From the NCBI RefSeq assembly GCF_016745095.1, contig NZ_CP067087.1:3274501-3338500 (forward strand): a DNA stretch of 64,000 bases, written 5' to 3'. Of the stretch, positions 39,793 to 55,339 are shown piece by piece. A program made the translations under genes and the position numbers. A model generated the notes under the pieces. That model did no database searches, was not told the DNA's origin, and saw only the letters and a list, made by a program, of their open reading frames with translations. Position 1 is the stretch's first letter, and every line of letters starts with the position of its first letter. The DNA is from Croceicoccus sp. YJ47 (lineage in GTDB: Bacteria > Pseudomonadota > Alphaproteobacteria > Sphingomonadales > Sphingomonadaceae).

Positions 39793-40128
39793 TCAATCGC
39801 GGGGGATCACGACCTCGTCGGGATGCGCCACGTTGAGATTGCGGCGCAGCAATTCGCCGACCAGATCCGGATCGGCATTGTTGGGGTCGAGCAGTTGCAC
39901 GCGGTTCGCCACGCGGTCGCGCTCCGCCTGAAGCTGCGCGAGCTCCGCCTCCCTTTGTTGGAGCAGCTGCGTCGAATCACCCCATGCGCGCACGCCGGTC
40001 GGCCCGACGAGCGCGGTCGCGCACAGCACGCCGACCGTAATCGCGGCGGTGACGCGGCCCATGTTGCGGCGCCGCACGCGGGGGCGCGTCACGCGAATGT
40101 CGTGGGGTTTGGAACGCTTTGCGGGCAT
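39793..40128 (-). CDS. FtsB/DivIC-type septum formation initiator protein
   Basis: The 111-residue protein has a basic N-terminus (RVTRPRVRRRNMG), one membrane helix (about 24-44) and a short coiled coil (LLQQREAELAQLQAERDRV, about 54-73). It ends with the conserved DPDLVGELLRRNLNVAHPDEVV. This is the usual layout of FtsB-like divisome proteins, which link FtsL and FtsQ and regulate septal peptidoglycan synthesis. In Alphaproteobacteria it commonly lies just upstream of pdhA, as here. Confidence 0.88.
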   Translation of the reverse strand: MPAKRSKPHDIRVTRPRVRRRNMGRVTAAITVGVLCATALVGPTGVRAWGDSTQLLQQREAELAQLQAERDRVANRVQLLDPNNADPDLVGELLRRNLNVAHPDEVVIPRD

Positions 40129-40266
40129 CGGGCGACAGAATCACAAAAACGCATGGGTTGCAAGCGCCGACTCGTTGGAATGTCGCGATTTCTGCGCCGA
40201 ACCGATGGCGGGTGGCAGCCGCTGCGAAGAGCCCCTATGACCGCAGGCCAAAAGGAGAGCGCAACG

Positions 40267-41070
40267 ATGGGTGACTTCGTACAGATCGAACGCAAGGGTC
40301 CGGTTGCGATCCTGCGCATGAACCAGCCCGACCGGCTGAATGCCATTGCCGATTTTTCCGATTGCGAGGATCTGATTGCCGCGATCGACATGGTGAACGC
40401 CGATATCACCGTTGCCGCCGCGATCCTGACCGGCAATGGCCGGGGTTTCAGTGCGGGGGGCAATCTTGCCGCGATGAAGGCGAAGACCGGCATCGGCCCG
40501 CGCGACAGTGCCGACGATACGCGCCGCGTGTACCGGCGCGGGGTGCAGGAAATCTCCCGCACGATGGAGGCCTGCGAGGTTCCGCTCATCGCGGCGGTGA
40601 ACGGGCCTGCGGTGGGGCTTGGCTGCGACATTGCCTGCCTGTGCGACATCCGCATCGCGAGCGAGAACGCGATATTTGCCGCCTCGTTCACGAAAATCGG
40701 GCTGATTCCCGGCGATGGCGGGGCGTGGGCGTTGCAGCAGGCGATCGGCTATGCGCGCGCGGCGGAAATGATGCTGACCTCGCGGCGCTATGACGCGGCG
40801 CAGGCGCTCGCGCTCGGGCTGGTGAACGGGGTGCACCCCGCCGACCGGCTCATGGACGAGGCGATGGATCTGGCGGACGGCATTGCGAGCAATCCGGTGC
40901 GTGCGACACGCATGACAAAGCGACTGCTTCGCCGGGCGCGGCAGCAATCGCTTGATGATGTCCTGGAACTCTCGGCGGCGATGCAGGCGATTGCCCACGA
41001 CACCGACGATCACAGGGAGGCGGTCGACGCGTTCCTCGAAAAACGCGCGCCGGATTTTTCGGGCCAATAA
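40267..41070 (+). CDS. enoyl-CoA hydratase/isomerase (crotonase) family protein
   Basis: Start at ATG 40267 with AGGAG at 40253-40257; ATG 40237 is a weaker alternative. The 267-residue crotonase has the oxyanion-hole regions FSAGGNLAAM and AVNGPAVGLGCDIACLCDIR. In the catalytic strip ASFTKIGLIPGDGG the first hydratase Glu (the rat E144 position) appears replaced by Thr or Lys; the later Glu in ARAAEMMLTS is kept. It may therefore be an isomerase or another crotonase rather than a classical hydratase. No beta-oxidation genes are adjacent. Confidence 0.8.
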   Translation: MGDFVQIERKGPVAILRMNQPDRLNAIADFSDCEDLIAAIDMVNADITVAAAILTGNGRGFSAGGNLAAMKAKTGIGPRDSADDTRRVYRRGVQEISRTMEACEVPLIAAVNGPAVGLGCDIACLCDIRIASENAIFAASFTKIGLIPGDGGAWALQQAIGYARAAEMMLTSRRYDAAQALALGLVNGVHPADRLMDEAMDLADGIASNPVRATRMTKRLLRRARQQSLDDVLELSAAMQAIAHDTDDHREAVDAFLEKRAPDFSGQ

Positions 41071-41106
41071 TTCCTCCGCAACGTTGCACCTGATCGCCGC
41101 GCAATG

Positions 41107-41146
41107 AAAAGGCGCACCGCCCCCATCCGGGAACGGTGCGCCTTTT
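41107..41146. terminator. bidirectional rho-independent terminator
   Basis: AAAAGGCGCACCG (41107-41119) pairs exactly with CGGTGCGCCTTTT (41134-41146). It lies between the crotonase gene (plus) and the CsbD gene (minus) and has A and T tracts in both directions. Confidence 0.88.
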
Positions 41147-41167
41147 ACGTCGTCGGATCTGATGGGA

Positions 41168-41338
41168 TCAGATGTCGTCGCCCAACTTACCCTTGACCTC
41201 ACCCTTGAGCTGCTGGCCCTTGCCCTCGGCTTCCTGTGCGCGGCCATCCGCGCGGGTTTCGGGATCGTTGCTCTGCTGCTTCACCTTGCCGGCGGCTTCG
41301 TTGGCATTGCCTTTGATCTTGTCGGTCAGTTCGCCCAT
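41168..41338 (-). CDS. CsbD family stress-response protein
   Basis: A small 56-residue gene on the minus strand, beginning MGELTDKIKGNANEAAGKVK and ending KGEVKGKLGDDI, with AAAGGA as ribosome-binding site. The hydrophilic, Lys/Glu/Gly-rich repeat (GKVKQQ, GRAQEAEGKG) is the CsbD pattern of small stress-induced proteins, in which each half begins with a GNANEAAGKVK-like stretch. The function is not established. A strong terminator lies 22 bases past the stop. It is short enough to be missed by length-filtered gene finding. Confidence 0.85.
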   Translation of the reverse strand: MGELTDKIKGNANEAAGKVKQQSNDPETRADGRAQEAEGKGQQLKGEVKGKLGDDI

Positions 41339-41686
41339 TTTTCAATCCTTTGCGTCATCGCAGACGAAGCGTCGTCTGCATCATGCCCTATCAACGGCCC
41401 GCATCCGCTTTGGGTCCGGCCCGCGCATTCCGCCCGTCGTCCCGCGCGGTCGGATCGTCGCGAATGGCCGGGTCCGCATCGACACACCGGTTTCCGCATC
41501 ATGAAATCCGGCCATGAAATCCGGCCATGAAATCCGGACGTTGGCAGAACGGAACTTAACGCCTAAGCCGGGGTTCAGAAGCCTGGATGCGGCGTATTCA
41601 CCGTCCGTGAAATGGCTGACGCGCCCGCTTGGCGCCATTTATGGCCAGGCGCAGCGGAACGGTGCCGGAGCATTGCGGGGAGAAGA
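41339..41686. other. 348-base intergenic region between csbD-like and LOV kinase genes
   Basis: This region holds the start regions of the two divergent genes. Apart from the tandem 13-mer at 41501-41537 I see no coding signal. Upstream of the LOV kinase start, CGGGGAGAAGA (41677-41686 region) serves as ribosome-binding site. Confidence 0.5.
41501..41537. repeat. 13-bp tandem repeat, about 2.8 copies
   Basis: The unit ATGAAATCCGGCC occurs at 41501-41513 and 41514-41526, followed by ATGAAATCCGG at 41527-41537. The copies are identical. It lies in the shared upstream region of the csbD-like and LOV kinase genes. Confidence 0.85.
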
Positions 41687-42766
41687 ATGAGCAACGACGA
41701 AAAACCGGTATCCTCGCGGCAGGCCATGCGCACGATCGAGGGGAAATCGCGCGGCGACAATCGGTTTGCCGGCGCGTCGGGCCTGTTGTTCGAACAGGCC
41801 ATGGCACAGACGCGCATGGCGGTGTGCCTGTCCGATCCGCATGTCAGGGACATGCCGATCGTCTTCTGCAACGAAGCGTTTCAGCGGCTCACCGGCTATG
41901 ACGAAATGGATATCGTCGGGGAAAACTGCCGCTTTCTGCAAGGGCCCGGCACGGATCAGGAGCAGGTCGCGAAAATCCGCAACGCCATCGCCGAAGAGAA
42001 GGTGATCGTGGTCGAGCTGCTGAATTATCGCAAGGACGGTTCGACGTTCTGGAATGCGCTTCACCTCGGGCCGATCTATGGTGAGGACGGGAGGCTGAAA
42101 TATTTCTTCGGGAGCCAGTGGGACGTCACCGACATCTACGAATCCCGCGCCGAGGAACGACACGCCAAGGCGATTGTCCGCGAGATATCGCACCGTTTGA
42201 AAAACGTCTTTTCCGTGATCGGCGGTATCGTCAACGTGACCGGACGGTCGATGGACGCACGCCCCGTCGCGCGCAAGATCAACGAAAGGGTGCAGGCGCT
42301 CGGTAGGTCGTACGAACCGACGCTGGATGATGCGGCGATGGGCACGATCCATATCGGACAGGCCATACGCTCCGTCCTTGCTCCCTATGATCCCGAAGGC
42401 GACCGCATCCGGTTTTCGGGCAATGGCACGCGCACCGAACCCAATGCGGTGTCGGCCATCGGCCTCACCCTGCACGAGCTTGCCACGAATGCGACGAAAT
42501 ATGGCGCGCTTTCCAATGGCGGGGGGACGGTCACCGTATCGTGGGGCCATGTGCGGGACCGGTTCGGCCATTCCGCGCTGGAAATCGAATGGGAGGAACA
42601 GGGCGGCCCTGCGATAGAAAGGGAGCCCGACATCTCCGAGGCGGCGAGCGGGACCGGCTTCAATATCGCGCGCGTCCTGCTCGAACATGCGCGCGGTCTG
42701 CTCGACCTCGAATGGCGGGCCGGCGGATTGTTCGCGCGCATTTCCATCCCCATTCAGAACGGATAG
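41687..42766 (+). CDS. LOV-domain blue-light histidine kinase (HWE/HisKA_2 family)
   Basis: Start at ATG 41687 behind GGGGAGAAGA; 359 residues. A LOV domain (about 32-152) carries the flavin-photoadduct motif GENCRFLQG with Cys81, plus the FMN-contact segments LLNYRKDGSTFWNAL and GSQWDVTD. The HWE-type dimerisation domain has the phosphoacceptor His169 in REISHRLKNVFSVIGG. The ATPase domain has LHELATNATKYGAL, the family WEE-GGP motif (EIEWEEQGGPAI) and GTGFNIARVL. Length and layout resemble Erythrobacter litoralis EL346-type LOV kinases. No membrane segment is present, so it is a soluble cytoplasmic photosensor. A frameshifted receiver gene follows 12 bases later. Confidence 0.93.
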   Translation: MSNDEKPVSSRQAMRTIEGKSRGDNRFAGASGLLFEQAMAQTRMAVCLSDPHVRDMPIVFCNEAFQRLTGYDEMDIVGENCRFLQGPGTDQEQVAKIRNAIAEEKVIVVELLNYRKDGSTFWNALHLGPIYGEDGRLKYFFGSQWDVTDIYESRAEERHAKAIVREISHRLKNVFSVIGGIVNVTGRSMDARPVARKINERVQALGRSYEPTLDDAAMGTIHIGQAIRSVLAPYDPEGDRIRFSGNGTRTEPNAVSAIGLTLHELATNATKYGALSNGGGTVTVSWGHVRDRFGHSALEIEWEEQGGPAIEREPDISEAASGTGFNIARVLLEHARGLLDLEWRAGGLFARISIPIQNG

Positions 42767-42778
42767 ACAGATTTTTAC

Positions 42779-43136
42779 ATGAAAACTTTTCTCGTGCTCG
42801 AGGACGAGCCATTTCATCGCCATGGACCTGAAATTCGCGTTCGAGGATGCAGGCCACGAGGCGGTGACCGCATCCGACAATGAAGAGGCGCTGCGCTGTA
42901 TCGAGCAGCGGTCCATCGCGGGCGCCGTCCTCGATGTCAGCCTGGGCCGCGGCGTTACCTGTGCGGAGACGGCCTCGGCGCTGCTCAATCGCAAGATACC
43001 CTTCGTGCTGCACACCGGCGACCTCAACCGGGTCGGCGAATATCTGCGCGAGATCGACGCCCCCGTCATTGCCAAGCCGCGCCCGGCCGAGGATGTCGTC
43101 AATCGCGTGGTGACCATGGTCGCCAGCAACGCCTGA
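42779..43136 (+). pseudogene. single-domain response regulator (LovR-like) with a one-base frameshift
   Basis: From ATG 42779 the frame reads MKTFLVLEDEPF, the beta-1 strand and acidic pocket of a receiver domain, then leaves frame near 42811-42815. The rest of the domain continues one base out of phase from 42813 as ...IAMDLKFAFEDAGHEAVT. It contains the phospho-Asp in AVLDVSLG, the Thr in FVLHTGD and the Lys in VIAKPRP. Removing one T from ATTTC restores a full receiver of about 118 residues. Initiation at ATG 42822 instead would drop the acidic pocket. The gene follows the LOV kinase after 12 bases, as a cognate regulator or phosphate sink would. It may be a real lesion, programmed slippage or a sequencing error. 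Confidence 0.8.
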
Positions 43137-43169
43137 TCCCGCGCGCACCAAGCGCTGGGCGGCGTGATG

Positions 43170-44150
43170 CTACCCCTGCTCCAGACAGCGTGACAGTCGG
43201 ATGAGATCGGCGCGGCCTTCGCCATCGCCCAGCTCATCCTGAAGCCGGCGCGCACGGTCGCCAATCTGCTGATCGCCGAAATGCGCCGCGATGCCGGCCA
43301 TGATGTGCATTTCATCGCGCAGCTTCTCGGTCCTGTCGGCATCCGGGATTTCGAGCGCGAGATAATCCTCCATCTCGATCAGCAACTCACGCTTGCGCCG
43401 TGCATAAAGCGCCTCCAGCGAGGCGATCGCATCATCGCCGCGCGCCGCCTTGTCCGGGGTCGCGAGCGGTGCATCGACCCATTTGCAAAGCGCATCGCGC
43501 AAGCGTTCGCTGCTCAGCGGCTTGGTGAGGTGATCCTGCATGCCGGCGGCGAGACAGCGCTGTGTATCCTCAGCCCCGCCATTGGCGGTAATGGCCAGGA
43601 TCGGGAGATCCGATGCGGCGAATCCATTTGCGCGGATCGTGCGCGCGGCCGTCACGCCGTCCATGACCGGCATTTCCATGTCCATCAATATGCCGCCAAA
43701 AGCCCGCCCTTCGCGGTGCGCGCGCTCCACCGCATCGACCGCCTCCTGACCATCGCCTACCGCCTCGGCCGCAACGCCGAGCTCCCGCAACATGCGCAGC
43801 ATGACATCGCGGCTGATGTCGGAATCTTCGGCGAGCAATATGCGTGCGCCCGACACGTCGCGCCGGCCGGATGCGGGCCAATCGCCGGACGCACTCGCCG
43901 CGACTTTTGGCTCCGTTTCGGTGTGAACCAAGACATCGCCGATGTGCTTCGGCGCCTCCTCGCGCATGATCGGCGGCGCGGGCAGTTCGCGCGAATCGTC
44001 GCCTGTCTCGACAGGTGCCGGTCCGTCCGCCTCGCCCGCCCCCTCAGTCGGCGACGACGCCGCCCGCCATCGGCGCGCAAGCAGCCATGCGCACACGATC
44101 GCCAGCCCGATCGCAACGCCGGCAAGAGCAGCCACCACAGCGTCGTCCAT
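43170..44150 (-). CDS. membrane-anchored response regulator with REC and Hpt-like domains
   Basis: The 326-residue protein has one N-terminal membrane helix (about 5-25) followed by RRWR, a disordered acidic linker (30-100) and a complete receiver domain (101-222). The receiver has the acidic pair in LLAEDSD, phospho-Asp157 in GILMDMEMPVMDG and Lys210 in LTKPLS. A helical C-terminus (240-326) includes MHIMAGIAAHFG, an Hpt-like site with His282. This is the REC-Hpt tail of a hybrid kinase without its kinase. It would pass phosphate from a kinase to a downstream regulator at the membrane. It is divergent from the BcsB-like operon and convergent with the LOV kinase pair. Confidence 0.82.
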   Translation of the reverse strand: MDDAVVAALAGVAIGLAIVCAWLLARRWRAASSPTEGAGEADGPAPVETGDDSRELPAPPIMREEAPKHIGDVLVHTETEPKVAASASGDWPASGRRDVSGARILLAEDSDISRDVMLRMLRELGVAAEAVGDGQEAVDAVERAHREGRAFGGILMDMEMPVMDGVTAARTIRANGFAASDLPILAITANGGAEDTQRCLAAGMQDHLTKPLSSERLRDALCKWVDAPLATPDKAARGDDAIASLEALYARRKRELLIEMEDYLALEIPDADRTEKLRDEMHIMAGIAAHFGDQQIGDRARRLQDELGDGEGRADLIRLSRCLEQG

Positions 44151-44351
44151 CGGCGTTCGTCTCCTTCATCTGTGTAAAATTCACGGCTATGGTCTTAACC
44201 GCACTTCTATCGAAACGCGTCCTCCATTAGAACCGGAACGGAGCAAATAAGAGAGAAATATTAACTATTTGGTCCGATGCAGGATACCAATCAATTCCGG
44301 GTTCCGATTGCGGTTTACCGACCGTAAGCCGGCAACTCCCAAGGGTTCGCA

Positions 44352-46277
44352 ATGAAAATCACCACGTCCTTCTGGACCGCGTCCGCGGTTGCCGTTCTGA
44401 CATCGACCGTCCTTGCGCAGGGGGCGGCGGAGCAGGCCGCCGCGCCGGCGTCGCAGCGCGCGATGACGGCGCCGCCCCCTGCGCAGGCGGCGGGATCCGT
44501 TTCGCGTTTCATCACCCTGGGCGAGCTTGGCCTGTCCGACGGATTCGAGATGGACGGGCTTTCGGGTACGCGTGAACTCTATTTCCCGGTTCCCGCCGGA
44601 CTGGACATCGGCGACATGCGGCTTCGCCTGCCCTACCGGTCCGATGCGGCCTTCGAAAGCCGCCGCGCCGTTGGAATCGAAATCGGCGGCCGGACGCGCT
44701 TTACCGCGGCTTTGCCCGACGGGTATTCGGAGGGCGTGATCGACATTCCGCTGTCGCCGGACATGATTGAGGGCGGCTTTCTCGCGGCGCGCATCGACTA
44801 TTCCGGCGCGATAACGGAGGATCGCTGCGTCGATCAGCGCGTGTCGGGCGCCTATCTCGCCTTTGACGGGACAGGCGGGCTGTCCGCCCGTCTCGGCAGG
44901 GGCGGATTATCCGATGTCGGCGTGCTCGCGGCCGCGATGCCGCGCGCGGTCAATATCGTCCTGCCCCCCAATCCCCGCCCTTCGGAAGCCGCCGCGGCGC
45001 TTTCGCTTCTGCTCGGCTTTCCCGATGCGAGGCTTGCGGGCGACCGGGATGAGCGAGGAACGGACGATGCACGCTGGTCCAGCGGGACGGTGCGGATCGC
45101 GCGCGGCAATGGCCCCGCGCTGGCCGTCGTGGATGGGTCGAACGGTCCGGCATTGCAGATCGGCGGCGACGATCCGGTGGCTGCGGTCCGCTTTCTGCGC
45201 AGCAGGGGACGCACGCTGGCCGCGACGCCTGCGGCCGCGACCGCCGGGCGCACGGCAACAGGGGACGCGCAGACGCTGACCATCGCGGATCTTGGCGCCG
45301 ATACCACGCCCAAAAGCTTCGCCGAAAACGCGGAATGGGGCGTTTCGATCCCGGCCTCCGCCATCCCGGCGGGGGAGCGCATGACGGGCGCGGAACTCGA
45401 CGTCGCGGTCGCGGTACGGCAGGGCGCCACCAAACCGGTCATCAGCGTGACGATGAACGGCGTGCTCCTCGCCAGTGCAACGGCGGCAATGGACGAGCCG
45501 ACGCGCATTCCCGTGACCTTCCCGGCCGGCATCGCGGCTTCGCGCAACCGGATGGAAGTGCGCGTCACCCGGCAGACCGCCGGCGGCGATTGCAGGTTCG
45601 CGCCGCAGGGATACCCGGCACAGCTCCTCCCCTCCAGCCGCATCGTCACCGCCCCGGCGGGGCCGCCAGCGGATTTTTCCGACCTCCCCGCCGCGCTCAA
45701 TGGCGGGTTCACCGCGGTTCTGCGCGGGCCGGGCGATCTTGGCCCGGTGGCGGCACTCCTCGGCCCGCTCGTCAACGCGGACGCGGATATTACCGTGACC
45801 TATGGCGAGGTGCCCGACGACGGCCCCGTCGTGTTCGTCGGGACCGACGCGCCCGCCGGCTTCGACCCGGTGGTCCGTTTCGATCAGGGCGCGATCCGGC
45901 TCGACAGCCCGGCGGGCGAAACGATCCTCGATTCCGCCGCGATCGCCCGGCATACCACGGTGCAGTTCGGCGAAATGGGCGACCGCACGCTCCTCTGGAT
46001 CAGGCCGGGCAGCGCCTTCGCAAGCCTTGCACAAAGCACGGAGCCGGCGGTGCTCGGCTTTGGCAATGTCGCGTTCCTCGACGGGGACCGCATCGATTTC
46101 GCCTTCAATAGCGAGCGTGAGAGGCTCATCGACATTCGCTATCCAGAGCGGTTCTCCGTCTGGCAGTTTTTCGAACGCTATCGGCTCTGGATCATCGGCC
46201 TTGGCTGGCTGCTCGTCACGCTTGGCTTCGTCTATCTCTTGCGGCGCGTCCTGTCCTCGTCCCGTTCGGACGATTGA
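44352..46277 (+). CDS. BcsB-like cellulose/exopolysaccharide synthase periplasmic subunit
   Basis: This 641-residue protein has a signal peptide (about 1-22) and two repeats of jellyroll plus flavodoxin-like modules in the BcsB style (ELYFPVPAGLDIGDMRLRL; LPPNPRPSEAAAALSLLLG; then WGVSIPASAIPAGERMTGAEL; ADITVTYGEVPDDGPVVF). A single C-terminal membrane helix (about 615-634) is preceded by an interfacial segment SVWQFFERYRLW. BcsB anchors the inner-membrane synthase and guides nascent glucan through the periplasm. Here the partner synthase is encoded next, with a two-base gap. It heads a five-gene operon. Family-level identity is good; the polymer need not be cellulose. Confidence 0.8.
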   Translation: MKITTSFWTASAVAVLTSTVLAQGAAEQAAAPASQRAMTAPPPAQAAGSVSRFITLGELGLSDGFEMDGLSGTRELYFPVPAGLDIGDMRLRLPYRSDAAFESRRAVGIEIGGRTRFTAALPDGYSEGVIDIPLSPDMIEGGFLAARIDYSGAITEDRCVDQRVSGAYLAFDGTGGLSARLGRGGLSDVGVLAAAMPRAVNIVLPPNPRPSEAAAALSLLLGFPDARLAGDRDERGTDDARWSSGTVRIARGNGPALAVVDGSNGPALQIGGDDPVAAVRFLRSRGRTLAATPAAATAGRTATGDAQTLTIADLGADTTPKSFAENAEWGVSIPASAIPAGERMTGAELDVAVAVRQGATKPVISVTMNGVLLASATAAMDEPTRIPVTFPAGIAASRNRMEVRVTRQTAGGDCRFAPQGYPAQLLPSSRIVTAPAGPPADFSDLPAALNGGFTAVLRGPGDLGPVAALLGPLVNADADITVTYGEVPDDGPVVFVGTDAPAGFDPVVRFDQGAIRLDSPAGETILDSAAIARHTTVQFGEMGDRTLLWIRPGSAFASLAQSTEPAVLGFGNVAFLDGDRIDFAFNSERERLIDIRYPERFSVWQFFERYRLWIIGLGWLLVTLGFVYLLRRVLSSSRSDD

Positions 46278-46279
46278 GG

Positions 46280-48166
46280 ATGGCGAGCTTCCTTTCCATC
46301 GACAGCTGGACAGGGGACTTCCTCGCCGAGCGCGGGCTGGTGACGGCGCGCCAGCTCAATGAGGCGAGCGAGCTTGCCGCGCGCTGGGGCTCCAGCCTCG
46401 TCGATGTCATGCTGACGAAGAACTGGATCGCGGCGGATGATTATTATGCCGCGCTCGCCGACCGGTTCGGCGTGGCGCTCGTCGATCTCGAACGCGATCC
46501 CCCCGCGCCCGATCTTCTGAACGAGGGGGAAGTCGCCCATTACATGCGCGCGCTCGTCATTCCCTGGCGCGAGGACGGCGGCGTCACGACCATCGTGACC
46601 GCCCTGCCCGGCCCCGAGGTGATCCTCTACGCGCGGGCAGGCTGGGGCGAGAATGTCCGCATCGCCATCGCCTCGAAACAGCAGATACAGCATGCGGTGC
46701 AACAGGCCTTCTCGCAGCGTTTCAGCCATGCCGCGGTGTATGACCTTGCCGAACACGATCCCGTGATGTCGGCGCAGACGGTTTTCACCCCGGCACAGAT
46801 CGTGTGCGCCTGGCTCGGGATAAGTGCCGTCGCGGTAGGCCTCGCACTCGCGCCGGTGGCGACGTTGATCGCGGTCAACCTCGTGATGACGGTGTTCTAT
46901 CTGGGCAATTTCGTGTTCAAGAGCGTGCTTGTCTGGTCCGGCGGGCGGCGCCAACATGCGAGTGAGCGGCAGCTCGACGCCGCGGTCGCCATGCTGCGCG
47001 ACGAAGATCTGCCGGTTTATACCGTGCTCGTCCCCATGTTTCGCGAACCCGACGTGCTGCCGATCGTCGCCAATGCGCTGCGCGAGCTCGATTACCCGAC
47101 CAGCCGGCTCGACATCAAGATCGTGCTGGAGGAAGGCGACCAGGTCACGATCGACGCCGCGACCGCACTCGGTCTCGAAAGCATATTCGAGATCGTGCTC
47201 GTCCCTCCCTCGCAGCCGCAGACGAAGCCCAAGGCATGCAATTACGCGCTGAAATTCGCGCGGGGCGAATATCTCGTCATCTACGATGCAGAGGACAAGC
47301 CTGAGCCCGACCAGCTCAAGAAAGTCGTCGTCACGTTTCAGCGTTCGCCGGCCCACGTCGCCTGCGTGCAATGCCGGCTCAACTATTTCAACCGCGAGGA
47401 AAACTGGCTGACCCGGCTGTTCACGCTCGACTATTCCTTGTGGTTCGATCTGATGCTGCCGGGCCTGGAAAAGCTGAAGATCCCGATCCCGCTCGGCGGC
47501 ACGTCGAACCATTTCCGCATGGATGTGCTGCGCGAATTGCGGGCGTGGGATCCCTTCAACGTGACCGAGGATGCCGATCTCGGCATTCGCCTTACGCAGA
47601 AGGGTTACGAGGTCCGGCTCGCCGCCTCCACCACTTTCGAGGAGGCGAATGTCTCGCAATCCAACTGGATCCGGCAACGCTCCCGCTGGATCAAGGGGTA
47701 TATGCAGACGTTCCTGGTGCATACGCGCCGGCTACTGCATCTCTATCGCACCATCGGCACGCTGGGCATACTGGGCTTTGTATTCTTCATCGGCGGGACG
47801 ATGTTCTCGGGGCTGCTGAACCCCGTTTTCTGGGCGATATTCGCGGCTTGGCTGGTGACCGAGATCGGCGCCTTCGATGTGCTATTCCCTCCGGCGTTGC
47901 TGTATCTTTCGCTGTTCAACCTGCTGGCGGGCAATGGGTTGTTCGTGTTCATCATGATGCTTGCCCCGTTCCGGCGAAACTGGCTCTCGCTCGTGCCCTT
48001 CAGCCTGACGGTCATCTGGTACTGGGTGCTCATGTCCATCGCCGCGTGGAAGGGCGCCTGGCAGCTCGTGACCAAGCCGTTCTACTGGGAAAAGACCGAG
48101 CATGGCCTGTCGAAACACACCGCCGAGGAAGTGAACAAGGCGCGCGCAGGACAGCAGGCGGCATGA
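46280..48166 (+). CDS. processive GT2 glycosyltransferase with N-terminal MshEN/GspE-N-like domain
   Basis: The 628-residue protein starts at ATG 46280 (TTG 46274 would overlap the upstream stop). Residues about 12-145 form a GspE-N/MshEN-like domain ([52 protein letters not shown]). Two membrane helices (175-218) precede the GT-A core with DAED 336-339, TED 429-431 and QRSRW 466-470, the D-x-D, TED and Q-x-x-R-W set of processive BcsA-like synthases; three or four helices close it. MshEN domains can bind c-di-GMP, but the Arg-Leu-Gly contacts of the consensus are only partly kept. No PilZ domain is present. It overlaps the next gene by four bases. Confidence 0.88.
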
Positions 48167-49626
48167 GCGTGTCGCGTCTCGCCCTCCCCGCGGTCCTGTC
48201 GCTGCTTGTATGCCTGTTCGTCGCGGCGGTGTTCGCGTTTCACCTGCGCGGCTTTGTATCGACGAGCGATCTCGACCTTCATGGCCGCACCTTGCTCGGC
48301 CTTTCGGGATCGCTGTCCTTCGCCTCCATCGTGACGGCGTTTCCCCCCGTGCCCTACATTGCCGCGGTGATGTTCGGCTATGTCCTGCCCGATGCAGGGA
48401 CATCCGGGCTTTCTTTGTTGAGCGCGGGCCTTTCTGCGCTGCTAGCGCTGGCGTGGTATCGCGCCTTCACCATCAACGGCCTGTCCCGGTGGGAGGCCGC
48501 GGCGGCGAGCGGCGCGCTGCTGTTCAATCCGGTATTCCTGCGCGCGGCGGGCGAAGGGATCGGCTTCGTGATCCTTCACTGGGGCTTCTGGTTGACCGCG
48601 CTGGGCGCATTCGGCCTGCGGCGGGGGGAACGGGTCAATGATCTGATGCTGGTGTCGGTCGGGCTGTGCATCATGGCATTCGCGCATCCCTACGGGCTGA
48701 TCCTCGTCTTCGCGAGCCTGCCTTTCCTTGCGCTCATCATGCCGGCGGATCGGTTGAGCACGGCGCCCGTGGCACTTTATCTTATCCTGCTTTTCCCTGT
48801 CATCTTCGCCCTGCTTTCGTTTCTCTACGTCAACTGGGTCTTCGCGTTCGATCCCCTGTCCTTCGCGCACGCAATCAGCCGGGAGGCCGCCGGTCTGGGT
48901 GCCGATCCGTCGGGCCGCGCCATTGCCGCGCCATGGCAGGCCGTTGCCCTCGCCGCGGCCGGTCTTTTCGCGGTATGCCCCGCGGCGGTGTCGATGTTTT
49001 ACGCAGCGCGCGGGATGGCTCCGCTGCGCTATGCCGTGATGGCGCTTTTTCTTTCGCTGCTCGGCGCGATGGTCCTGGCCTTTGCTTTCGGCATGTTCCC
49101 CTCCCCCGCTATCGCGGCCAGCCTCGGCGTCACGGCGGCGGCATGCTGCGTCGCGCGCTGGCCGCTCAACCGTTTGCGCCGGGTGGAACTGCTGCTCCTG
49201 CTCGCAGGCGCGGTCGGCGGCGGGGTGCTGATCCTCGCGGATGGTTCGCCGGAGACGGAGCGGTGGAAAGCCGCCGCATTACAGCGCGCCGTTCCCGTCG
49301 CCGACCCGGAACTGGCCGCGCTTTCCCGCGTGCTTCGCGGCCGGTCGGAAATCCTCTTCGATGCGGAGGCGGCACCGGCTGTCATCGCCCTGCGCGGGGG
49401 TCCGGACGGAATATGGACGAGCGAGGACACGCCCTTCACGCTTGCCTCGCTGCGCGGGCGAACGGATGCCCGCATGCTGGTCGTGCGCGACCGGGGGTCG
49501 GTTTACGGGAGTGACCGGGTGGGCCGTATTTTCCCCGATCTTTATGACGACGGCCATCCCGGTTACGATCTCGTCTACGATGGCCTTCGATGGCGTGTTT
49601 ACGAAACAAGCGGCGAGGCAGGATAA
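48163..49626 (+). CDS. multi-pass membrane protein, GT-C/PMT-like, hypothetical
   Basis: A 487-residue protein starting [17 protein letters not shown]. About ten membrane helices span residues 5-365, with a first periplasmic loop containing acidic residues (STSDLDLHG), reminiscent of the catalytic loop of GT-C glycosyltransferases. A soluble domain of about 120 residues ends it. I recognise no named family. The ATGA overlap with the synthase gene and the TAATG overlap with the next gene show it is part of the operon. It could add side groups to the glycan or act as an accessory membrane subunit; both are inference. Confidence 0.65.
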
Positions 49627-50585
49627 TGGGCGCAGGTGAACAGACGAAAATCCTCGTGGTCGACGACGTGCCCGAAAGCGCGCTCATCACGAAGGCGATG
49701 CTGACCAAAGGTGGCTTTGACCATATCGATATCGCGCGCGGCGGACGCGATGCGTTGCGCATGTGTGGGATCGGCGACGATGGCGGTACGGCGGCCTTTG
49801 CCCATTCCTACGCGCTGGTCGTGCTCGACATCCGCATGCCCGATATCGACGGGCTGGAGGTCTGCGCGCGGATGCGATTGTCGCGCCATACGCGCCGTCT
49901 CCCCATACTGATGCTGACCGCGACGAACGATGCCGAAACGTTGAATCAGGCGTTCATGGCAGGCGCGGACGATTTCCTGACCAAGCCGATCAACGATGTC
50001 CGTCTGCTGGCCCGCATACGCACGCTCTTGCGGATGCAGCGCGAGCGTGAGCGGCGCGCCCTGCGCGAAGAAGAGCTGCAATTGCAGAACGCCGCGCTCA
50101 AGCAGGGACAGATCAGTTTCAGCCTCATCGACCCCGACACCGACCTCCTGCGCGAAAGGGCGTTCGATCTCGTCGTGTCCGATTGCCGCCGGCGCGACCG
50201 GCCCGCCGCGATCGCTCTCGTGCGGATCGTCGATTTTCCCGGCTTCGTCGAATTGCATGGGCAGGACAGCGCAGAGGCGATGGTGCGCGACGTTGCCGGC
50301 ATGCTGCGGACGATCCCGGCGCCGGTGGGCGTGATGCTCACCGCCTATGGCCCCGGCATGTTCATGGGAATCGAACCGGGAGCGTCGTCGCCCCGCGCGC
50401 TGGACCATTGGGGGGAGCAGGCCGCGCGCGCGATCGCGGAGCGGCGCATCCATCACGGCAATTCGATACAGTCGGGGCATGTCGCCCTGATGATCCGGAC
50501 GGCCTGGGCGAAACCGGGCGATCTCGGCCCGGCCGCCGATCGCATCATTCACGAAACCAAGACCATGCTAGTGGAGCGCCAATGA
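49626..50585 (+). CDS. response regulator with degenerate GGDEF output domain
   Basis: The 319-residue protein has an intact receiver (VVDDVPES, phospho-Asp68 in VVLDIRMPDIDG, Lys120 in FLTKPIND) and a coiled linker (135-160, RMQRERERRALREEELQLQN). A C-terminal domain then follows GGDEF topology: DPDTDLLRERAFDLVVSDCRRRDRPAAIA, given here by its ends DPDTDLLRERAF and RRRDRPAAIALVRIVDF. The active-site loop reads AYGPGMFMG (GPGMF, 242-246) in place of R-Y-G-G-D-E-F, so cyclase activity is not expected. It may bind nucleotide or protein instead. It lies inside the synthase operon, a likely phosphorylation-controlled switch for it. Confidence 0.8.
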   Translation: MGAGEQTKILVVDDVPESALITKAMLTKGGFDHIDIARGGRDALRMCGIGDDGGTAAFAHSYALVVLDIRMPDIDGLEVCARMRLSRHTRRLPILMLTATNDAETLNQAFMAGADDFLTKPINDVRLLARIRTLLRMQRERERRALREEELQLQNAALKQGQISFSLIDPDTDLLRERAFDLVVSDCRRRDRPAAIALVRIVDFPGFVELHGQDSAEAMVRDVAGMLRTIPAPVGVMLTAYGPGMFMGIEPGASSPRALDHWGEQAARAIAERRIHHGNSIQSGHVALMIRTAWAKPGDLGPAADRIIHETKTMLVERQ

Positions 50586-51388
50586 CCCCCCGTACCTGCA
50601 TTATCGGGCTGGCTTGCGCCGCCCTGTTCCCTGCCCTGCCTGCCTGTGCGCAGGATGGCGGGGTCGACGCGGCGCCGCCCCCGCCGAGCGATGGGCAGAT
50701 CATCGCCACGTTCTACTATTCCAACAGCACACGCGGCTTCGGCCCGGACGGCGACACGATCGACATCCCCGATTACGAGAAGATGGAGCTTTTCCTGCTC
50801 GCCGAATATCGCGTCACGCCGGACCTCACGCTGGTGGTGAAGCCGAGCTTTCGCAACATCTCGGTCGAGGGCGAGGACGACGACAGCGGGCTTGGCTACA
50901 CCGATCTGGGTGCGCGTTACCGGTTGATTGGCGACGACGGTGCCTGGCTCGCGGCTAAAGGGGCGGTGCGCATTCCCGGCTTCACGCGCGACGACCGGCT
51001 CGCGCAGGTGGGCAACACCGGCACCGAATATGATCTTCGCCTGCGGGGCTTTCACAATATCGCGGCGGGTGCGCATGGCGCGTTCGTCGATGCACAGGCG
51101 AGCTACCGCCTGCGCGACGGCGACCCGCCGAACGAATTTCACGGCGATGTCACACTGGGCTACCGGCCTAGCGCGGACCTGCTCATCATGGCGCAAAGCT
51201 TCAACACGATCAGCGATGGCGCAGGCCGCGGCATTTTCGACGAATATCGCTATTATAACGTGCAACTGGGCGCGGTGCAGCAGGTGTCGCCGGCGGTCGC
51301 GCTCCAGGCCGGTTTGATGGGCACGATTGGCGGCACGAACGCCCTGCGCGAACGTGGTTTCTTCACAGGGGTATGGTTCGCGTTCTAG
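50582..51388 (+). CDS. putative outer-membrane beta-barrel protein of the exopolysaccharide operon
   Basis: A 268-residue protein with a signal peptide (about 1-23, cleavage near ACAQD), a short Pro-rich start and alternating amphipathic strands (TLVVKPSFRNISVEG, YTDLGARYRLIGDDGAWLA, GAFVDAQASYRLRDGD). The C-terminus ends in Phe (GVWFAF), the BAM signal of outer-membrane barrels. It starts in an ATGA overlap with the regulator gene and is the last gene of the operon. An export or secretion-pore role for the glycan is inferred from position. No named family is recognised. Confidence 0.65.
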   Translation: MTPRTCIIGLACAALFPALPACAQDGGVDAAPPPPSDGQIIATFYYSNSTRGFGPDGDTIDIPDYEKMELFLLAEYRVTPDLTLVVKPSFRNISVEGEDDDSGLGYTDLGARYRLIGDDGAWLAAKGAVRIPGFTRDDRLAQVGNTGTEYDLRLRGFHNIAAGAHGAFVDAQASYRLRDGDPPNEFHGDVTLGYRPSADLLIMAQSFNTISDGAGRGIFDEYRYYNVQLGAVQQVSPAVALQAGLMGTIGGTNALRERGFFTGVWFAF

Positions 51389-52410
51389 CGTCCGTGGCGG
51401 AGCAGCCGGGCCGCCGGCTTGTTCTGAATGGTGAAATCGGTGTCGGCTTGCCCGCCCCCGTCGGGATCGCTCAACCAGCGCCAGATCAGCGCCGTGTCGA
51501 TCCCGAAGGCACGCGCCTCGTCCAGCCAGATGGACAGCACGTCGCGCTGCACGGCGAGATTCGGCGTTCCGGCGCGCTCCTCCGCGCTTTCCCACGGGCG
51601 CAACGTCGCACCACCGACAGACCGCAGGCCGATCTCGCCCAGCCATGCCGGTTTCGCATGACGCTCGCCCAACGCGCGCAGCACACTCAATTCCGCACGC
51701 ATCGCCCCCCGCCATGCCGCGCGATCCGAACCCGGTCCCAGAACGGGGTATGACGTCATGGCGATCAAATCGAGCCGGTCCCAGAATGCGACCGCTTCCG
51801 CCCCCGCGGCATTATGCGCCACATAGGTCAGCCGCCCCGGAAACACATCGCGCAGCCGTTCGATGATGCCGCGCCATTCGGGCCGCCGCGTCGTATGGCG
51901 CAGCTCCGTCCCGATGCAGAGGGTCGAGGCTCCCGCCTGCGCCGCCGCCGCGGCATGGAGGCGCAAGGCATCTTCATAGGCCGCGAACCATGCGGTCCAG
52001 TCTTCCTCGCGAGCGAAGGAAATCGCCCCAGCCCACCGTTCCGGCACCCAGACATGCGGCTTCACCACGACATCGAGTCCGCATTCGCGCGCCTGCGCAA
52101 TTCCGCGTCGCAAGCCATCGGGGGACAGCGCGCTTCCCGGCACGAGCTGCGGATCGTTCTCCCCCGGCTGCCAGAAGAAGGGGATGAGCGCGACCACCGA
52201 CGCGCCCGCCTCGGCAAGCTGGCGAAAGCTGCCGAGCGCGGCCGCGCTGCCGAAGGGGGCGGCGGCATCCTCGACGAGGTTTACACCGACCCGCATGCCT
52301 CTGCTACGTCCCACGACGGAAAGCGCCGAGAGGCACGGCGCCGCACACGCCGCCTGCACAAAGCCGCGCCGCCCGATCATCCCTGCCCGCAATGCGCCTG
52401 CTGGTGTCAT
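51385..52410 (-). CDS. GH113-like TIM-barrel glycoside hydrolase
   Basis: Start taken at ATG 52410; ATG 52380 (MIGRRGFVQAAC) is also possible, and either gives a Tat-like signal with Arg-Arg. The 341-residue protein shows a (beta/alpha)8 glycosidase pattern with probable acid/base Glu169 (CIGTELRH), nucleophile Glu259 (AWLGEIGLRS), VKPHVWVPERW and LIWRWLSDP. This pattern fits GH113 (beta-mannanases) and related families. It is convergent with the synthase operon, with a four-base stop overlap (CTAG). By analogy with BcsZ it may trim or release the polymer in the periplasm. Specificity is not proven. Confidence 0.7.
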   Translation of the reverse strand: MTPAGALRAGMIGRRGFVQAACAAPCLSALSVVGRSRGMRVGVNLVEDAAAPFGSAAALGSFRQLAEAGASVVALIPFFWQPGENDPQLVPGSALSPDGLRRGIAQARECGLDVVVKPHVWVPERWAGAISFAREEDWTAWFAAYEDALRLHAAAAAQAGASTLCIGTELRHTTRRPEWRGIIERLRDVFPGRLTYVAHNAAGAEAVAFWDRLDLIAMTSYPVLGPGSDRAAWRGAMRAELSVLRALGERHAKPAWLGEIGLRSVGGATLRPWESAEERAGTPNLAVQRDVLSIWLDEARAFGIDTALIWRWLSDPDGGGQADTDFTIQNKPAARLLRHGR

Positions 52411-52488
52411 ATCCCGCCCGATCCATCCCCTGTCACGATCATGGATAGGCCACACGCGCGATGATGGCGATAGCCAGCCGCCGATGGC

Positions 52489-53436
52489 TCAAAAACTGTA
52501 GCGCGCCCCGATCCGGCCGATGAATTCATTGTCGTCCAGACCGTTCGCGACATCGTCATTGAGCATCCAGACATCGACCCCGCCATTGAAAGACAGCGCG
52601 GGCACCGCCTCGATCGGGCTGATCGCGAGAGTTACACCGGTGCGGAAAAAACCGAAGTCGGGATTGCCGCCATCCACGCCCCTGTAGAAACTGTCCGACA
52701 ATCCGATCATCAACGGCACCGACACCGTGACCGGCGTTTCCGTGCCCACGGTAAAGCTCGGCGTGAGCGATGGCTGCACGTAAAGGGCGTCGTCGCGCAG
52801 CGGCTGCCCCTCTTCCTGCACCATACGCAAGGACGGCGAGAGGGTGAAATTGTCGAGCGGGACCCGCCCTTCCCAGAATTGCGTGTCGTCGAAACGCAGG
52901 ATCATCTCGAAATCGTCGTAATCGGTAAAGGAATCGGCCGGCGAAATATAGCGATACCACGCGAGCGACACGGTAAACCGCTCCCGGAATGTGAGGGCGA
53001 CGCCGGTATAGATGTCCGCTTCGTACCATCCCGGCACCGGGCCGTCGTTCGCCTGGCCCAGGCCGGGGCCGCCGCTCTGAATGCTGTTCCAGGTGCCGAC
53101 GAAGGCCGTCACCCCGGTGAGCGCCCCGCCCTCCAGTTCCGGCAAAGCAATCCGCGCCGACGCGAAGGGTTGCAGGCTCGGCTCCTCCGAAAATGCCACG
53201 CCGCGCGAGATATACTTGCCGACCGCGGTCGCCCCGACGGACCAGGTCACGCGATCCGGGTCCGGCGTCCGTGCCTTCGCGGCGCCGGGCGGCACCGCTT
53301 CGGGCGGACGTTCGTCGCCATCGGGAGCCTCGATATCCTGCGCAAACGCGGGAGAACCGGCCGCGGCCGCAGCGATCAGGGCAGCGCCCATGGGAAAAGT
53401 ACGAAGATTCGCGGGGAAATTGAAATGTCGCAGCAT
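52489..53436 (-). CDS. outer-membrane porin-like protein (TorF/Gcw_chp type)
   Basis: A 315-residue protein with a signal peptide (cleavage near AFAQD, residue 33), a Pro/Asp-rich linker and a barrel domain with the Gcw_chp-like opening TAVGKYISRGVAFSEEPSLQ. Many aromatic-flanked strands follow, and it ends in Phe (GRIGARYSF). Such barrels are common in sphingomonads, with unknown cargo. ATG 53391 is an alternative start. It lies upstream of the GH113-like gene on the same strand (78-base gap to the start used here), so the two may be co-transcribed and belong to the glycan system. Confidence 0.7.
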   Translation of the reverse strand: MLRHFNFPANLRTFPMGAALIAAAAAGSPAFAQDIEAPDGDERPPEAVPPGAAKARTPDPDRVTWSVGATAVGKYISRGVAFSEEPSLQPFASARIALPELEGGALTGVTAFVGTWNSIQSGGPGLGQANDGPVPGWYEADIYTGVALTFRERFTVSLAWYRYISPADSFTDYDDFEMILRFDDTQFWEGRVPLDNFTLSPSLRMVQEEGQPLRDDALYVQPSLTPSFTVGTETPVTVSVPLMIGLSDSFYRGVDGGNPDFGFFRTGVTLAISPIEAVPALSFNGGVDVWMLNDDVANGLDDNEFIGRIGARYSF

Positions 53437-53576
53437 GGCTTTTCTATAATGGAGCAGGGCGTCCGCCGTTCCGTTCCGGCGGTCGCGCTGGCCAGCGTGC
53501 GTGGGATGGGCGCGCTTCGGCTTGCCGCGCCTTGATCGCTCTTTAGCAATTGCGCAAGAGCGGCTAGCGTCGGGCG

Positions 53577-54110
53577 ATGACCGACAATGCCGATCTTCTC
53601 GCCCTCGTCCGCGAAATCGCCGACCATCCCAAACCGGGCATCGCCTTTCGCGACATCAGCACGCTGCTGCTCGACGGCGCGGCGTTTCGCACCACGATCG
53701 ACCGTATGGCGGAGCTTTTGAACGGCACGCAGCCGTGCATGCTGGCCGGGATCGAGGCGCGCGGTTTCATATTTGCCTCCGCCCTCGCCTATCGCATGGG
53801 GTGGGGCATGATCATGCTTCGCAAGCCGGGCAAGCTGCCGGGTACGCGCCTGTCGATCGAATACGAGCTGGAATACGGGAGCGATACGCTCGAAATGCAC
53901 GACGATGCATGCGTTCCCGACACGCCCGTAGTGCTGGTCGACGATTTGCTGGCCACCGGGGGAACCGCGCTGGCGGCGGCGCGCCTGCTCCGCGATGCCG
54001 GTGCACGAGTCGAACAGGCGCTCTTCGCGATCGATCTCGTCGACCTTGGCGGCGGGGACCGTTTGCGCGAAGAAAATATTGCGGTGCGCTCGCTCATAAA
54101 TATCGGTTAA
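53577..54110 (+). CDS. apt: adenine phosphoribosyltransferase
   Basis: The 177-residue enzyme begins MTDNADLLALVREIADHPKPG and has FRDISTLLLDG, the substrate region IEARGFIFASALAYRMG, and the PRPP-binding motif VVLVDDLLATGGTALAA near residue 120. It makes AMP from adenine and PRPP for purine salvage. It is a single-gene unit. A short GTCCC/GGGAC hairpin (54132-54146) after the stop could be a weak terminator. Confidence 0.96.
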   Translation: MTDNADLLALVREIADHPKPGIAFRDISTLLLDGAAFRTTIDRMAELLNGTQPCMLAGIEARGFIFASALAYRMGWGMIMLRKPGKLPGTRLSIEYELEYGSDTLEMHDDACVPDTPVVLVDDLLATGGTALAAARLLRDAGARVEQALFAIDLVDLGGGDRLREENIAVRSLINIG

Positions 54111-54466
54111 CGACCGGTTTTCGCACCCACTGTCCCAAAAAGGGACTTCGCCCTGCTGCAACAGCGTTTGACATCACCCCTCCGATTTGAGGATGTTAAG
54201 ACATTACCTGAGCAGAGCATGATGCGCGATGTCGCTTTTGGCGAAATTCCGCGACACGGATGCAAAGCGGGCAGGTTGTCGACCATATTCAACGATTGTC
54301 GGGGGGCACTCTTGAAACACCATTCTAGAAAACGCGCAATGCGTCGGTTTCGGCGCAAGCATTCGGAACTTTTTATCTTTCTGATTTCAGCCGTTGTATT
54401 CGCGGCCTGCTATTACGTTATTCTGAATTAAGCGTTGCCGCCGCGACGGCATTCCCGCCAACGCGT
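54111..54466. other. 356-base region between apt and purU
   Basis: This stretch has lower GC than its surroundings. It contains the small hairpin GTCCCAAAAAGGGAC (54132-54146) and one possible tiny gene at 54339-54431. I see no tRNA, sRNA-like terminator or long repeat in the rest. Confidence 0.5.
54339..54431 (+). CDS. possible 30-residue single-pass membrane microprotein
   Basis: An ATG at 54339 opens MRRFRRKHSELFIFLISAVV followed by FAACYYVILN and a stop at 54431. The pattern is a basic N-terminus plus one membrane helix, typical of small membrane proteins. There is no strong ribosome-binding site. The frame is open further upstream to 54168, but that sequence looks non-coding. Weakly supported. 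Confidence 0.3.
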   Translation: MRRFRRKHSELFIFLISAVVFAACYYVILN

Positions 54467-55339
54467 CTAGAAGACCACGGTCCTGAAGCCATTGAGGAAG
54501 ACACGATCCTCAAGATGCGCGCGGACCGCGCGGGCGAGCACGCGCCGTTCGACATCGCGCCCCTTGGCGACCAGCATGTCGGGCGTATCGGAATGGGTGA
54601 CGGCTTCGACATCCTGGTGAATGATCGGGCCTTCGTCGAGATCGGCGGTCACGTAATGGGCCGTCGCGCCGATCATCTTCACGCCGCGATCATGCGCCTG
54701 ATGATAGGGTTTCGCACCCTTGAATCCCGGCAGGAAACTGTGATGGATATTGATGCACCGGCCCGATAGAAACCGCGCGAAATCGTCCGAAAGGATCTGC
54801 ATGTAACGCGCCAGCACCACCAGTTCGGCGCCCGTATCCGCAATCACCTGCTTGACCTGCGCTTCCTGCCGCGGCTTGGTCTCTGCGGTGATCGGGAAAT
54901 GATAATACGGAATATCGCCGATCAGCGACAGGGTCAGCGCGTTGCGCGGATGGTTGGACACGATGGCGACCACATCCATCGACAGTTCGCCAATCCTGTG
55001 CCGATAGAGGAGATCGGCCAGGCAATGGTCGAATTTCGACACCATCAGCACGACCTTGCGCCGGACCGCCGTATCGCGAAGCGTCCAGCGCGCCGCCATC
55101 GATTGGGCTGGCTCCGCGAAATCGTCCCGGTAGGTGTCCAGCGTCGCGGCGCCGGGATCGAATTGAACCCGCATGAAGAATTGCCCGGTCGCGGCATCGT
55201 TGTAATGCTGCGCCTCGGTGATGTTCCCCCCCTTTTCGGCGAGGAAACCGGCAACCTTCGCGACAAGACCGGCACGATCGTTACAGGTCAGGTTCAGAAC
55301 AAATCTTGGTGCCAATGCGTGTCTCCCGCTCCACCCCAT
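54467..55339 (-). CDS. purU: formyltetrahydrofolate deformylase
   Basis: Start at ATG 55339 (TTG 55345 is two codons upstream). The 290-residue protein has an N-terminal ACT domain ([20 protein letters not shown]) and a C-terminal formyltransferase-fold domain. The latter carries the catalytic region [17 protein letters not shown] (His) and [13 protein letters not shown] (Asp), plus VAIVSNHP. PurU hydrolyses 10-formyl-THF to formate and THF, balancing one-carbon pools. The three catalytic residues Asn, His and Asp appear intact. It is monocistronic. Confidence 0.95.

Follow-up and report, generated by a model that had tools for sequence, protein, structure and literature searches.

A xag/sfz-family exopolysaccharide locus of Croceicoccus sp. 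YJ47 with a decayed MshEN c-di-GMP motif and a possible phosphorelay control

In the BcsAB cellulose synthase, BcsA carries a C-terminal PilZ domain. A different arrangement, in which an MshEN domain is fused to a glycosyltransferase, was stated already in 2016 (PMC5013675). In E. coli, the NfrBA-YbcH system makes a secreted polysaccharide with NfrB, a family 2 glycosyltransferase (GT2) that has MshEN in place of PilZ (PMC8669469), and related synthases belong to the xagABCD operon, known from a biofilm polymer (PMC3609779, PMC4643136), and to the sfz stalk-formation cluster of iron oxidisers (PMC8250860). Here we examine a window of 64,000 nucleotides from Croceicoccus sp. YJ47 (contig NZ_CP067087.1, positions 3,274,501 to 3,338,500; coordinates below count from the first letter of this window), in which the gene of an MshEN-GT2 synthase shares an operon with that of a regulator, REC-GGDEF*, made of a receiver (REC) domain and a degenerate GGDEF domain. 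Judged by homology, the locus very probably belongs to the xag/sfz family of synthase-dependent exopolysaccharide systems. Its enzymes are of an ordinary, known family, and the new part is a variant of regulation: the motif by which MshEN binds cyclic di-GMP (c-di-GMP) has decayed, and the synthase may be gated by a phosphorelay that acts through REC-GGDEF*.

The GT2 of the window has an N-terminal MshEN/T2SSE_N domain, and next to it lie homologues of XagC/Sfz3 and XagD/Sfz4, a BcsB-like gene and an XagA-type barrel gene. The Xanthomonas cucurbitae cluster has barrel, GT2, XagC-like (GTC) and family 113 glycoside hydrolase (GH113) genes in a row (E 9e-73, 2e-271, 7e-38 and 1e-135 with profiles made from the window proteins), and Mariprofundus PV-1 and ET2 have the order BcsB-GT2-GTC-GH113-barrel, with a weak barrel match (2e-8 and 3e-5); gene order and homology are thus consistent with xagABCD and sfz1-5 as published. 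The letters A to D were put on the X. cucurbitae genes by us, from their order and the homologies reported in PMC4643136. Like the window, Xanthomonas xagABCD has homologues of the barrel (A), the MshEN-GT2 (B, 53% identity), the membrane protein (C) and GH113 (D); unlike the window, the X. cucurbitae locus lacks REC-GGDEF* and, within the cluster itself, a BcsB-like gene, and its c-di-GMP motif scores 45.3 bits with the NCBIfam model of that motif (NF053729, cut-off 38 bits). The sfz/sfb cluster of Mariprofundus, found also in Ferriphaselus, shares the BcsB-GT2-GTC-GH113 order and a GT2 that is 48-50% identical, and differs in a near-intact motif (60.9 and 61.7 bits), a barrel of weak similarity and the absence of a detectable REC-GGDEF*. 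In NfrB, the MshEN domain is C-terminal and functional, the enzyme is activated by c-di-GMP and works with the outer-membrane protein NfrA, rich in tetratricopeptide repeats, and the operon as described holds no BcsB, GH113 or REC-GGDEF* (PMC8669469). For the regulator, the nearest parallels are E. coli BcsE and Pseudomonas PelD, degenerate GGDEF proteins that likewise serve an exopolysaccharide synthase, BcsE being a REC-GGDEF tandem; these sense c-di-GMP by an intact inhibitory site (I-site), and the BcsE receiver is phosphorylation-incompetent, which is the opposite of what we find in the window (PMC7439463, PMC11470070).

An earlier reading of this DNA, made from its letters alone (the sequence-only reading), had rightly named NfrB as a precedent for a GT2 joined to MshEN (PMC8669469), and had proposed a secreted beta-glycan system with unfamiliar control. 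A secreted-polysaccharide synthase system it is; an unfamiliar one it is not, because MshEN-GT2 with BcsB is the XagB/Sfz2 arrangement, and homology to xag/sfz rules out an unfamiliar beta-glycan system. What that reading had said would undo it, close homologues assigned to a characterised polymer, came about by half: a system is known for the homologues, but its polymer is called uncharacterised in PMC3528676. The features are as follows.

44352-46277, plus strand: BcsB-like periplasmic co-synthase (Sfz1-like), N-terminus signal-like by eye, one C-terminal transmembrane (TM) segment
46274 (start TTG) or 46280 (start ATG) to 48166, plus strand: MshEN-GT2 polysaccharide synthase (XagB/Sfz2-like)
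46307-46465, plus strand: decayed c-di-GMP motif of MshEN (53 residues, 10-62 of the GT2 protein), 5/14 key positions kept
46466-46720, plus strand: Pfam MshEN match (PF05157), residues 63-147 of the GT2 protein
47018-47698, plus strand: GT2 catalytic domain, residues 247-473, with DAED, TED and QRSRW
48163-49626, plus strand: XagC/Sfz3-like polytopic membrane protein with a soluble C-terminal part, GT-C fold unproven
49626-50585, plus strand: REC-GGDEF* regulator, receiver residues D13, D14, D68 and K120, pseudo-GGDEF
50118-50582, plus strand: pseudo-GGDEF domain, residues 165-319, GPGMF replacing GGDEF, PVGV at the I-site position
50582-51388, plus strand: putative outer-membrane beta-barrel, XagA-like, family profile matching 4rl8
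51385-52455, minus strand: GH113 glycoside hydrolase (XagD/Sfz4-like), convergent to the barrel gene with a 4-base overlap
43170-44150, minus strand: receiver protein with a sub-threshold match to a histidine phosphotransfer (Hpt) domain, divergent neighbour of bcsB, candidate phosphotransfer partner

The GT2 protein matches two GT2 profiles, each with more than 70 bits, and its MshEN match (41.9 bits, cut-off 23.1) is the sole one in the 3.35-Mb genome. The first 157 residues of the protein resemble PilF (6f8l, E 2.5e-13) and MshE of V. cholerae (5htl, E 0.0013), so that absence of MshEN is ruled out, and the Pfam scan found no PilZ domain on the protein, the genome's one PilZ match sitting in a 241-residue frame elsewhere. 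The proposal that MshEN replaces PilZ here is thus borne out, by the very profile comparison that had been suggested for it. The c-di-GMP motif of MshEN comprises 53 residues with two 24-residue copies of RLGxx(L/V/I)(L/V/I)xxG(L/V/I)(L/V/I)xxxxLxxxLxxQ (PMC5013675), and the Pfam match leaves it uncovered. With NF053729 the window synthase scores 29.9 bits (25.7 bits with the whole protein), under the cut-off, and the Thiobacillus relative 57.8 bits. We also counted 14 key positions, allowing conservative changes and setting the border between intact and decayed at 8/14, a cut chosen for this analysis: Mariprofundus PV-1 and Thiobacillus keep 13 each, Xanthomonas 11 and the window 5. Among the nine changes are those of R, L and Q in motif I and, in motif II, of R, Q and both G. 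The motif therefore fails in this synthase, though the homology of the MshEN fold stands. The decayed segment is nevertheless not in free drift: all 53 residues are identical in C. hydrothermalis L063 (nonsynonymous divergence, dN, 0; synonymous divergence, dS, 0.54), with dN/dS of 0.14 and 0.19 against two other sphingomonad loci (L161 and L059), which indicates that it is under purifying selection.

The regulator is built the other way round. Its receiver scores 85.4 bits (Pfam) and has the acidic pocket, phosphoacceptor aspartate and lysine (D13, D14, D68 and K120), so it looks phosphorylatable. Its C-terminal half reaches only 13.1 bits with the Pfam GGDEF model (cut-off 23.8); profile-profile comparison with the nine GGDEF domains of the genome used for it identifies a GGDEF fold (98.8%, E 1.2e-16). 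In that alignment YGPGMF stands opposite LGGDEF, GG[DE]EF is absent, and the place of the RxxD I-site reads PVGV, in agreement with the degenerate GGDEF that had been noticed from the letters. An active cyclase in the operon, considered as a candidate, is ruled out by GPGMF at the active site.

Relatives were taken from the best 80 of 576 in the named scan and from further genomes (20), giving 100 homologous loci, which are not a census and in several of which a contig end lies close to the operon. A REC-GGDEF* protein was found at 18 of the 100, besides the window, by hhalign of 845 neighbouring frames (a further weak match, 71%, in L116 is uncounted), and GG[DE]EF is missing from all 19 proteins. 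Sixteen, the window included, form a main clade with Niveispirillum-type (L068, L162-L164), rhizobial (L061/L064/L066), rhodobacteral (L062/L065/L107) and sphingomonad (L058-L060/L063/L161) members; the second group, L166-L168, is one further family. In all 16 the gene follows the XagC-like gene and D68 and K120 of the receiver are kept. At the aligned I-site position, L068, L163 and L164 have RLGD or RIGD and L162 QLGD, L065 and L107 keep D but not R, L062 keeps neither, and both residues are absent from the rhizobial and sphingomonad members (9/9). In L166-L168 the receiver lysine is lost (3/3) and RLGD stands at the I-site in 2/3. Loss of c-di-GMP sites thus tends to go with a sound receiver, and the lineage whose receiver is broken tends to keep a site, in few independent events; the Niveispirillum-type loci keep both a sound receiver and c-di-GMP sites.

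Among the REC-GGDEF* loci scored with NF053729 (L058 and L164 were left out), 14 of 17, the window included, fall below the cut-off: the sphingomonad L063 (30.2), L161 (37.6), L059 (24.6) and L060 (21.0), the rhizobial L061 (29.6), L064 (24.2) and L066 (28.4), the rhodobacteral L062 (23.9), L065 (27.1) and L107 (30.5), and L166-L168 with no match. Above it are the Niveispirillum-type L068 (53.6), L162 (51.4) and L163 (49.3). Thirteen loci without REC-GGDEF*, hand-picked and thus non-random, divide into seven above (L067, L069, L070, L072, L078, L118, L123) and six below (L073, L074, L077, L081, L110, L133). From 101 aligned sequences we computed a tree of the GT2 core with 79 rows (leaving out the columns ahead of residue 170; quick search, support by the Shimodaira-Hasegawa-like approximate likelihood ratio test), after dropping five without an N-terminus (L113, L117, L132, L172, L174), 16 close Bacteroidota copies, nearly all from Mucilaginibacter, and L071; L133 and L165, which are the same locus, were both kept. 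By residue count, rows with REC-GGDEF* are 4 intact and 15 decayed (15/19), and rows without it 47 intact and 13 decayed (13/60). The Niveispirillum-type loci, which have REC-GGDEF* and a mostly intact motif, are sister to a 12-row clade (support 98) in which every motif is decayed, and for this reason the arrival of REC-GGDEF* seems to precede the loss of the motif.

Kinase and phosphotransfer genes accompany several of these regulators. Directly after REC-GGDEF*, and on its strand, four loci (L062, L065, L107 and L162) have a frame for a histidine kinase (HATPase_c 82-90 bits). A REC-Hpt gene stands beside GH113 in L064 and L066 (Hpt 30.8 and 32.1 bits; cut-off 24.6) and likewise in L061 (Hpt 24.1); behind it follows a hybrid kinase in L061, confirmed with Pfam, and a kinase frame in L064 and L066, found by a profile built in this analysis. 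In L161 a hybrid kinase gene runs divergently from bcsB. The receiver neighbour in the window (REC 78.4 bits, Hpt 19.4 bits) is kept in L058 and L063; its L058 counterpart matches REC only, nothing for Hpt being found at E<=0.001. Where the 8-kb flanks were complete, a kinase lies nearby in 8/14 of the main clade versus 15/48 others (8 of them Mucilaginibacter; L166-L168 counted among the others), and another receiver in 11/14 versus 9/48.

Our working model is as follows. The MshEN-GT2 would polymerise a nucleotide sugar and thread the chain through its TM bundle, the BcsB-like protein would steer it through the periplasm, the XagA-like barrel would be its exit, GH113 would trim or release it, and the XagC-like membrane protein may decorate it. 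In the alphaproteobacterial branch the synthase would have retained its MshEN domain with most c-di-GMP contacts lost. Most likely a histidine kinase/Hpt relay would phosphorylate the REC-GGDEF* receiver, whereupon the pseudo-cyclase would bind the synthase, probably at the ligand-free MshEN, and turn polymer synthesis on or off. That the synthase is gated by a phosphorelay and not by c-di-GMP is a tentative proposal, held at somewhat less than an even chance; the reading as a whole, a xag/sfz system with phospho-gating, we put at roughly 0.45. The sequence-only reading had offered two gates, c-di-GMP or a phosphorylated dead-GGDEF protein. We favour the second; the first is the weaker because the motif is decayed and the Pfam match lies outside it. 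How it would have come about is more doubtful still: in Alphaproteobacteria a c-di-GMP-gated synthase could have become phosphorelay-gated when a REC-pseudo-cyclase was recruited while the MshEN motif was mostly intact, motif and I-site then being lost and the receiver kept, with the dead cyclase domain as protein ligand of the dead c-di-GMP receptor domain and L166-L168 as a separate mirror image (receiver lost, I-site mostly kept). This history we consider unlikely in its entirety.

Several observations weigh against phospho-gating and the history just given. No HisKA kinase adjoins the window operon, and kinase genes are common beside loci outside the main clade too (the 15/48 above). Decay occurs without REC-GGDEF* in the 13/60 rows mentioned, namely 8 Bacteroidota, 3 alphaproteobacteria, a cyanobacterial metagenome-assembled genome and L180. 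We looked for a statistical association of motif decay with REC-GGDEF* and did not obtain one, and since the tree holds only two independent pairs we claim no significance. L133 (duplicate L165) is the nearest branch outside the main clade (support 89). It lacks REC-GGDEF* and counts as intact with 9/14 positions, yet scores 29.4 bits, below the cut-off, which weakens the order in which the partner came first. Synthase residues 63-150 are looser than the motif segment (dN/dS 0.11, 0.24 and 0.54 against L063, L161 and L059), and the pseudo-GGDEF half evolves fast (0.06, 0.33 and 0.69 against the same three, larger distances being near saturation).

It is also conceivable, if unlikely, that c-di-GMP still controls the synthase through MshEN in the manner of NfrB, the changes being tolerated and REC-GGDEF* merely recruiting an active cyclase. 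With 14 GGDEF and 10 EAL domains above Pfam cut-offs in the genome, c-di-GMP is very probably available in the cell; the sister locus L161 misses the cut-off by just 0.4 bits, so that residual binding is possible; several key positions vary in other relatives too; and NfrB seemed to need more than one MshEN change before binding was blocked completely (PMC8669469). Against this reading, nine of 14 key positions have changed, with the losses in both motifs given above, the changed segment is identical in the window and C. hydrothermalis, and Xanthomonas GspE lost binding through several changes of this kind (PMC5013675). Rather improbable, in our judgement, is a BcsE-like role of REC-GGDEF* in assembly, with binding to c-di-GMP or another subunit and the receiver as a mere scaffold. 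The E. coli cellulose system does have such a degenerate REC-GGDEF tandem (PMC7439463, PMC11470070), and both the distant L166-L168, with their decayed receiver and RLGD in 2/3, and L068, L163 and L164, with RxGD, would suit it, but the window is reversed, with the receiver intact and the I-site lost, and kinase genes follow REC-GGDEF* in four relatives. A little less probable again would be a regulator that acts elsewhere, the synthase being constitutive and the MshEN remnant just structural. MshEN has decayed without a partner in several other lineages, the pseudo-GGDEF half evolves fast, and the partner interface is a hypothesis; yet overlaps of 1 and 4 bases fix REC-GGDEF* inside the unit, its place after the XagC-like gene is constant in the main clade (16/16), and the motif segment is under purifying selection.

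If phospho-gating is true, a second-messenger switch on a secretion-coupled synthase was exchanged for protein phosphorylation, both decayed domains being retained as a docking pair, and the related loci offer possible intermediate states of the exchange. The comparison also brings together three literatures: the biofilm polymer of xag, the stalks of iron oxidisers, and NfrB. A 2021 paper took the N-terminus of the Mariprofundus stalk synthase Sfz2 for an EpsE-like domain of secretion systems (PMC8250860); because its motif is near intact, we predict that Sfz2 (9968-11842 in L072, and in L070) is a direct c-di-GMP receptor. Sfz4 was filed there as family GH10 (PMC8250860). The genes at its place in L070 and L072 match GH113 with 144 and 158 bits, and Sfz4/XagD is thus predicted to be a GH113 enzyme, a prediction that would let one recombinant hydrolase be used to test what kind of polymer this is.

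The operon itself is as tight as the sequence-only reading had it. The BcsB-like and GT2 genes overlap by 4 bases with the TTG 46274 start or leave a 2-base gap with ATG 46280, and recomputing the other junctions gave overlaps of 4 bases (GT2/GT-C-like), 1 base (GT-C-like/REC-GGDEF*) and 4 bases (REC-GGDEF*/barrel). In extent, the five-gene unit at 44352-51388 was one gene short: the GH113 gene (51385-52455), which overlaps the barrel gene by 4 bases on the opposite strand, belongs to the system. The synthase motifs it had listed are there in part, TED (residues 429-431) and QRSRW (466-470) literally; in place of DxD the donor site reads DAED (336-339).

For the other proteins the assignments vary in firmness. 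The BcsB-like protein of the window reaches 11.6 bits (Pfam cut-off 21); PF03170 matches 16 of the 18 aligned family members at E<=0.01 but not the window protein, and the four best PDB matches are BcsB (best E 0.011). Cys159 and Cys414 are invariant in 18 aligned BcsB-like sequences and perhaps form a disulfide between periplasmic domains. The XagC-like window protein has no Pfam match, and comparison with the PDB gave no match at E<=1; among its relatives, PMT_2 (E 0.0042) and PTPS_related (0.0051) match one of 18 each, no more strongly than three implausible matches in the same scan, and the GT-C label is for that reason unproven. The barrel family profile matches 4rl8 (E 5e-6), with Phenol_MetA_deg in 3/17 members, and a porin is a candidate identity for the XagA-type barrel. 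The GH113 protein scores 110 bits with Pfam and its family profile matches solved GH113-type beta-1,4-mannanases (3civ, E 1.1e-37); E184 and E274, which we take to be the catalytic pair, are invariant in 12 aligned sequences. Synthases of this sort can have linked hydrolases, BcsZ and the like, and by that analogy GH113 suggests a beta-mannan-like polymer.

The closest named GT2 relatives among the best 80 of 576 are those of Croceicoccus L058 (98% identity) and L063 (95%). MshEN-GT2 is sporadic, occurring (E<=1e-30) in 2/147 genomes of the order, its own included, 45/385 of the class and 89/398 of the phylum, all drawn from larger groups. In the open-access literature searched we found no prior description of REC-GGDEF* in xag-type loci and no paper on a Croceicoccus exopolysaccharide glycosyltransferase. 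For an RNA switch, no Rfam match reached the gathering threshold in 40000-54500, and promoter and terminator scans stayed near chance (3 versus 1.1 and 6 versus 5.9 expected).

Upstream of bcsB lies a PAS/HWE histidine kinase (41612-42766, plus strand) carrying GENCRFLQ, presumably a LOV-type photoreceptor motif, followed by a small gene (42822-43136, plus strand) that is receiver-like by eye and has no Pfam match at E<=0.001; the two, 1.2-2.7 kb upstream of bcsB, make light a possible input. The next gene behind GH113 (52489-53436, minus strand) looks secreted and beta-rich by eye, has no Pfam match above cut-off and, among the best 80 of 576 relatives, adjoins the operon only in Croceicoccus L058 and L063. 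Elsewhere, Mucilaginibacter loci (e.g. L081-L085, L088-L090, L092, L093) and other Bacteroidota (L087, L108, L110, L126) combine BcsB, GT2 and XagC-like genes with 4-6/14 motif positions and no REC-GGDEF* nearby. In X. cucurbitae a cellulose-synthase-like gene with PilZ and a BcsB gene lie some 2.5 kb from the xag-like cluster (L069, 16636-21203). Receiver genes lie directly beside MshEN-GT2, with 10-12/14 motif positions, in L123, L125 and L136 (Parvibaculum-type) and in L173, L175, L178 and L179, another two-component link to the MshEN-GT2 family.

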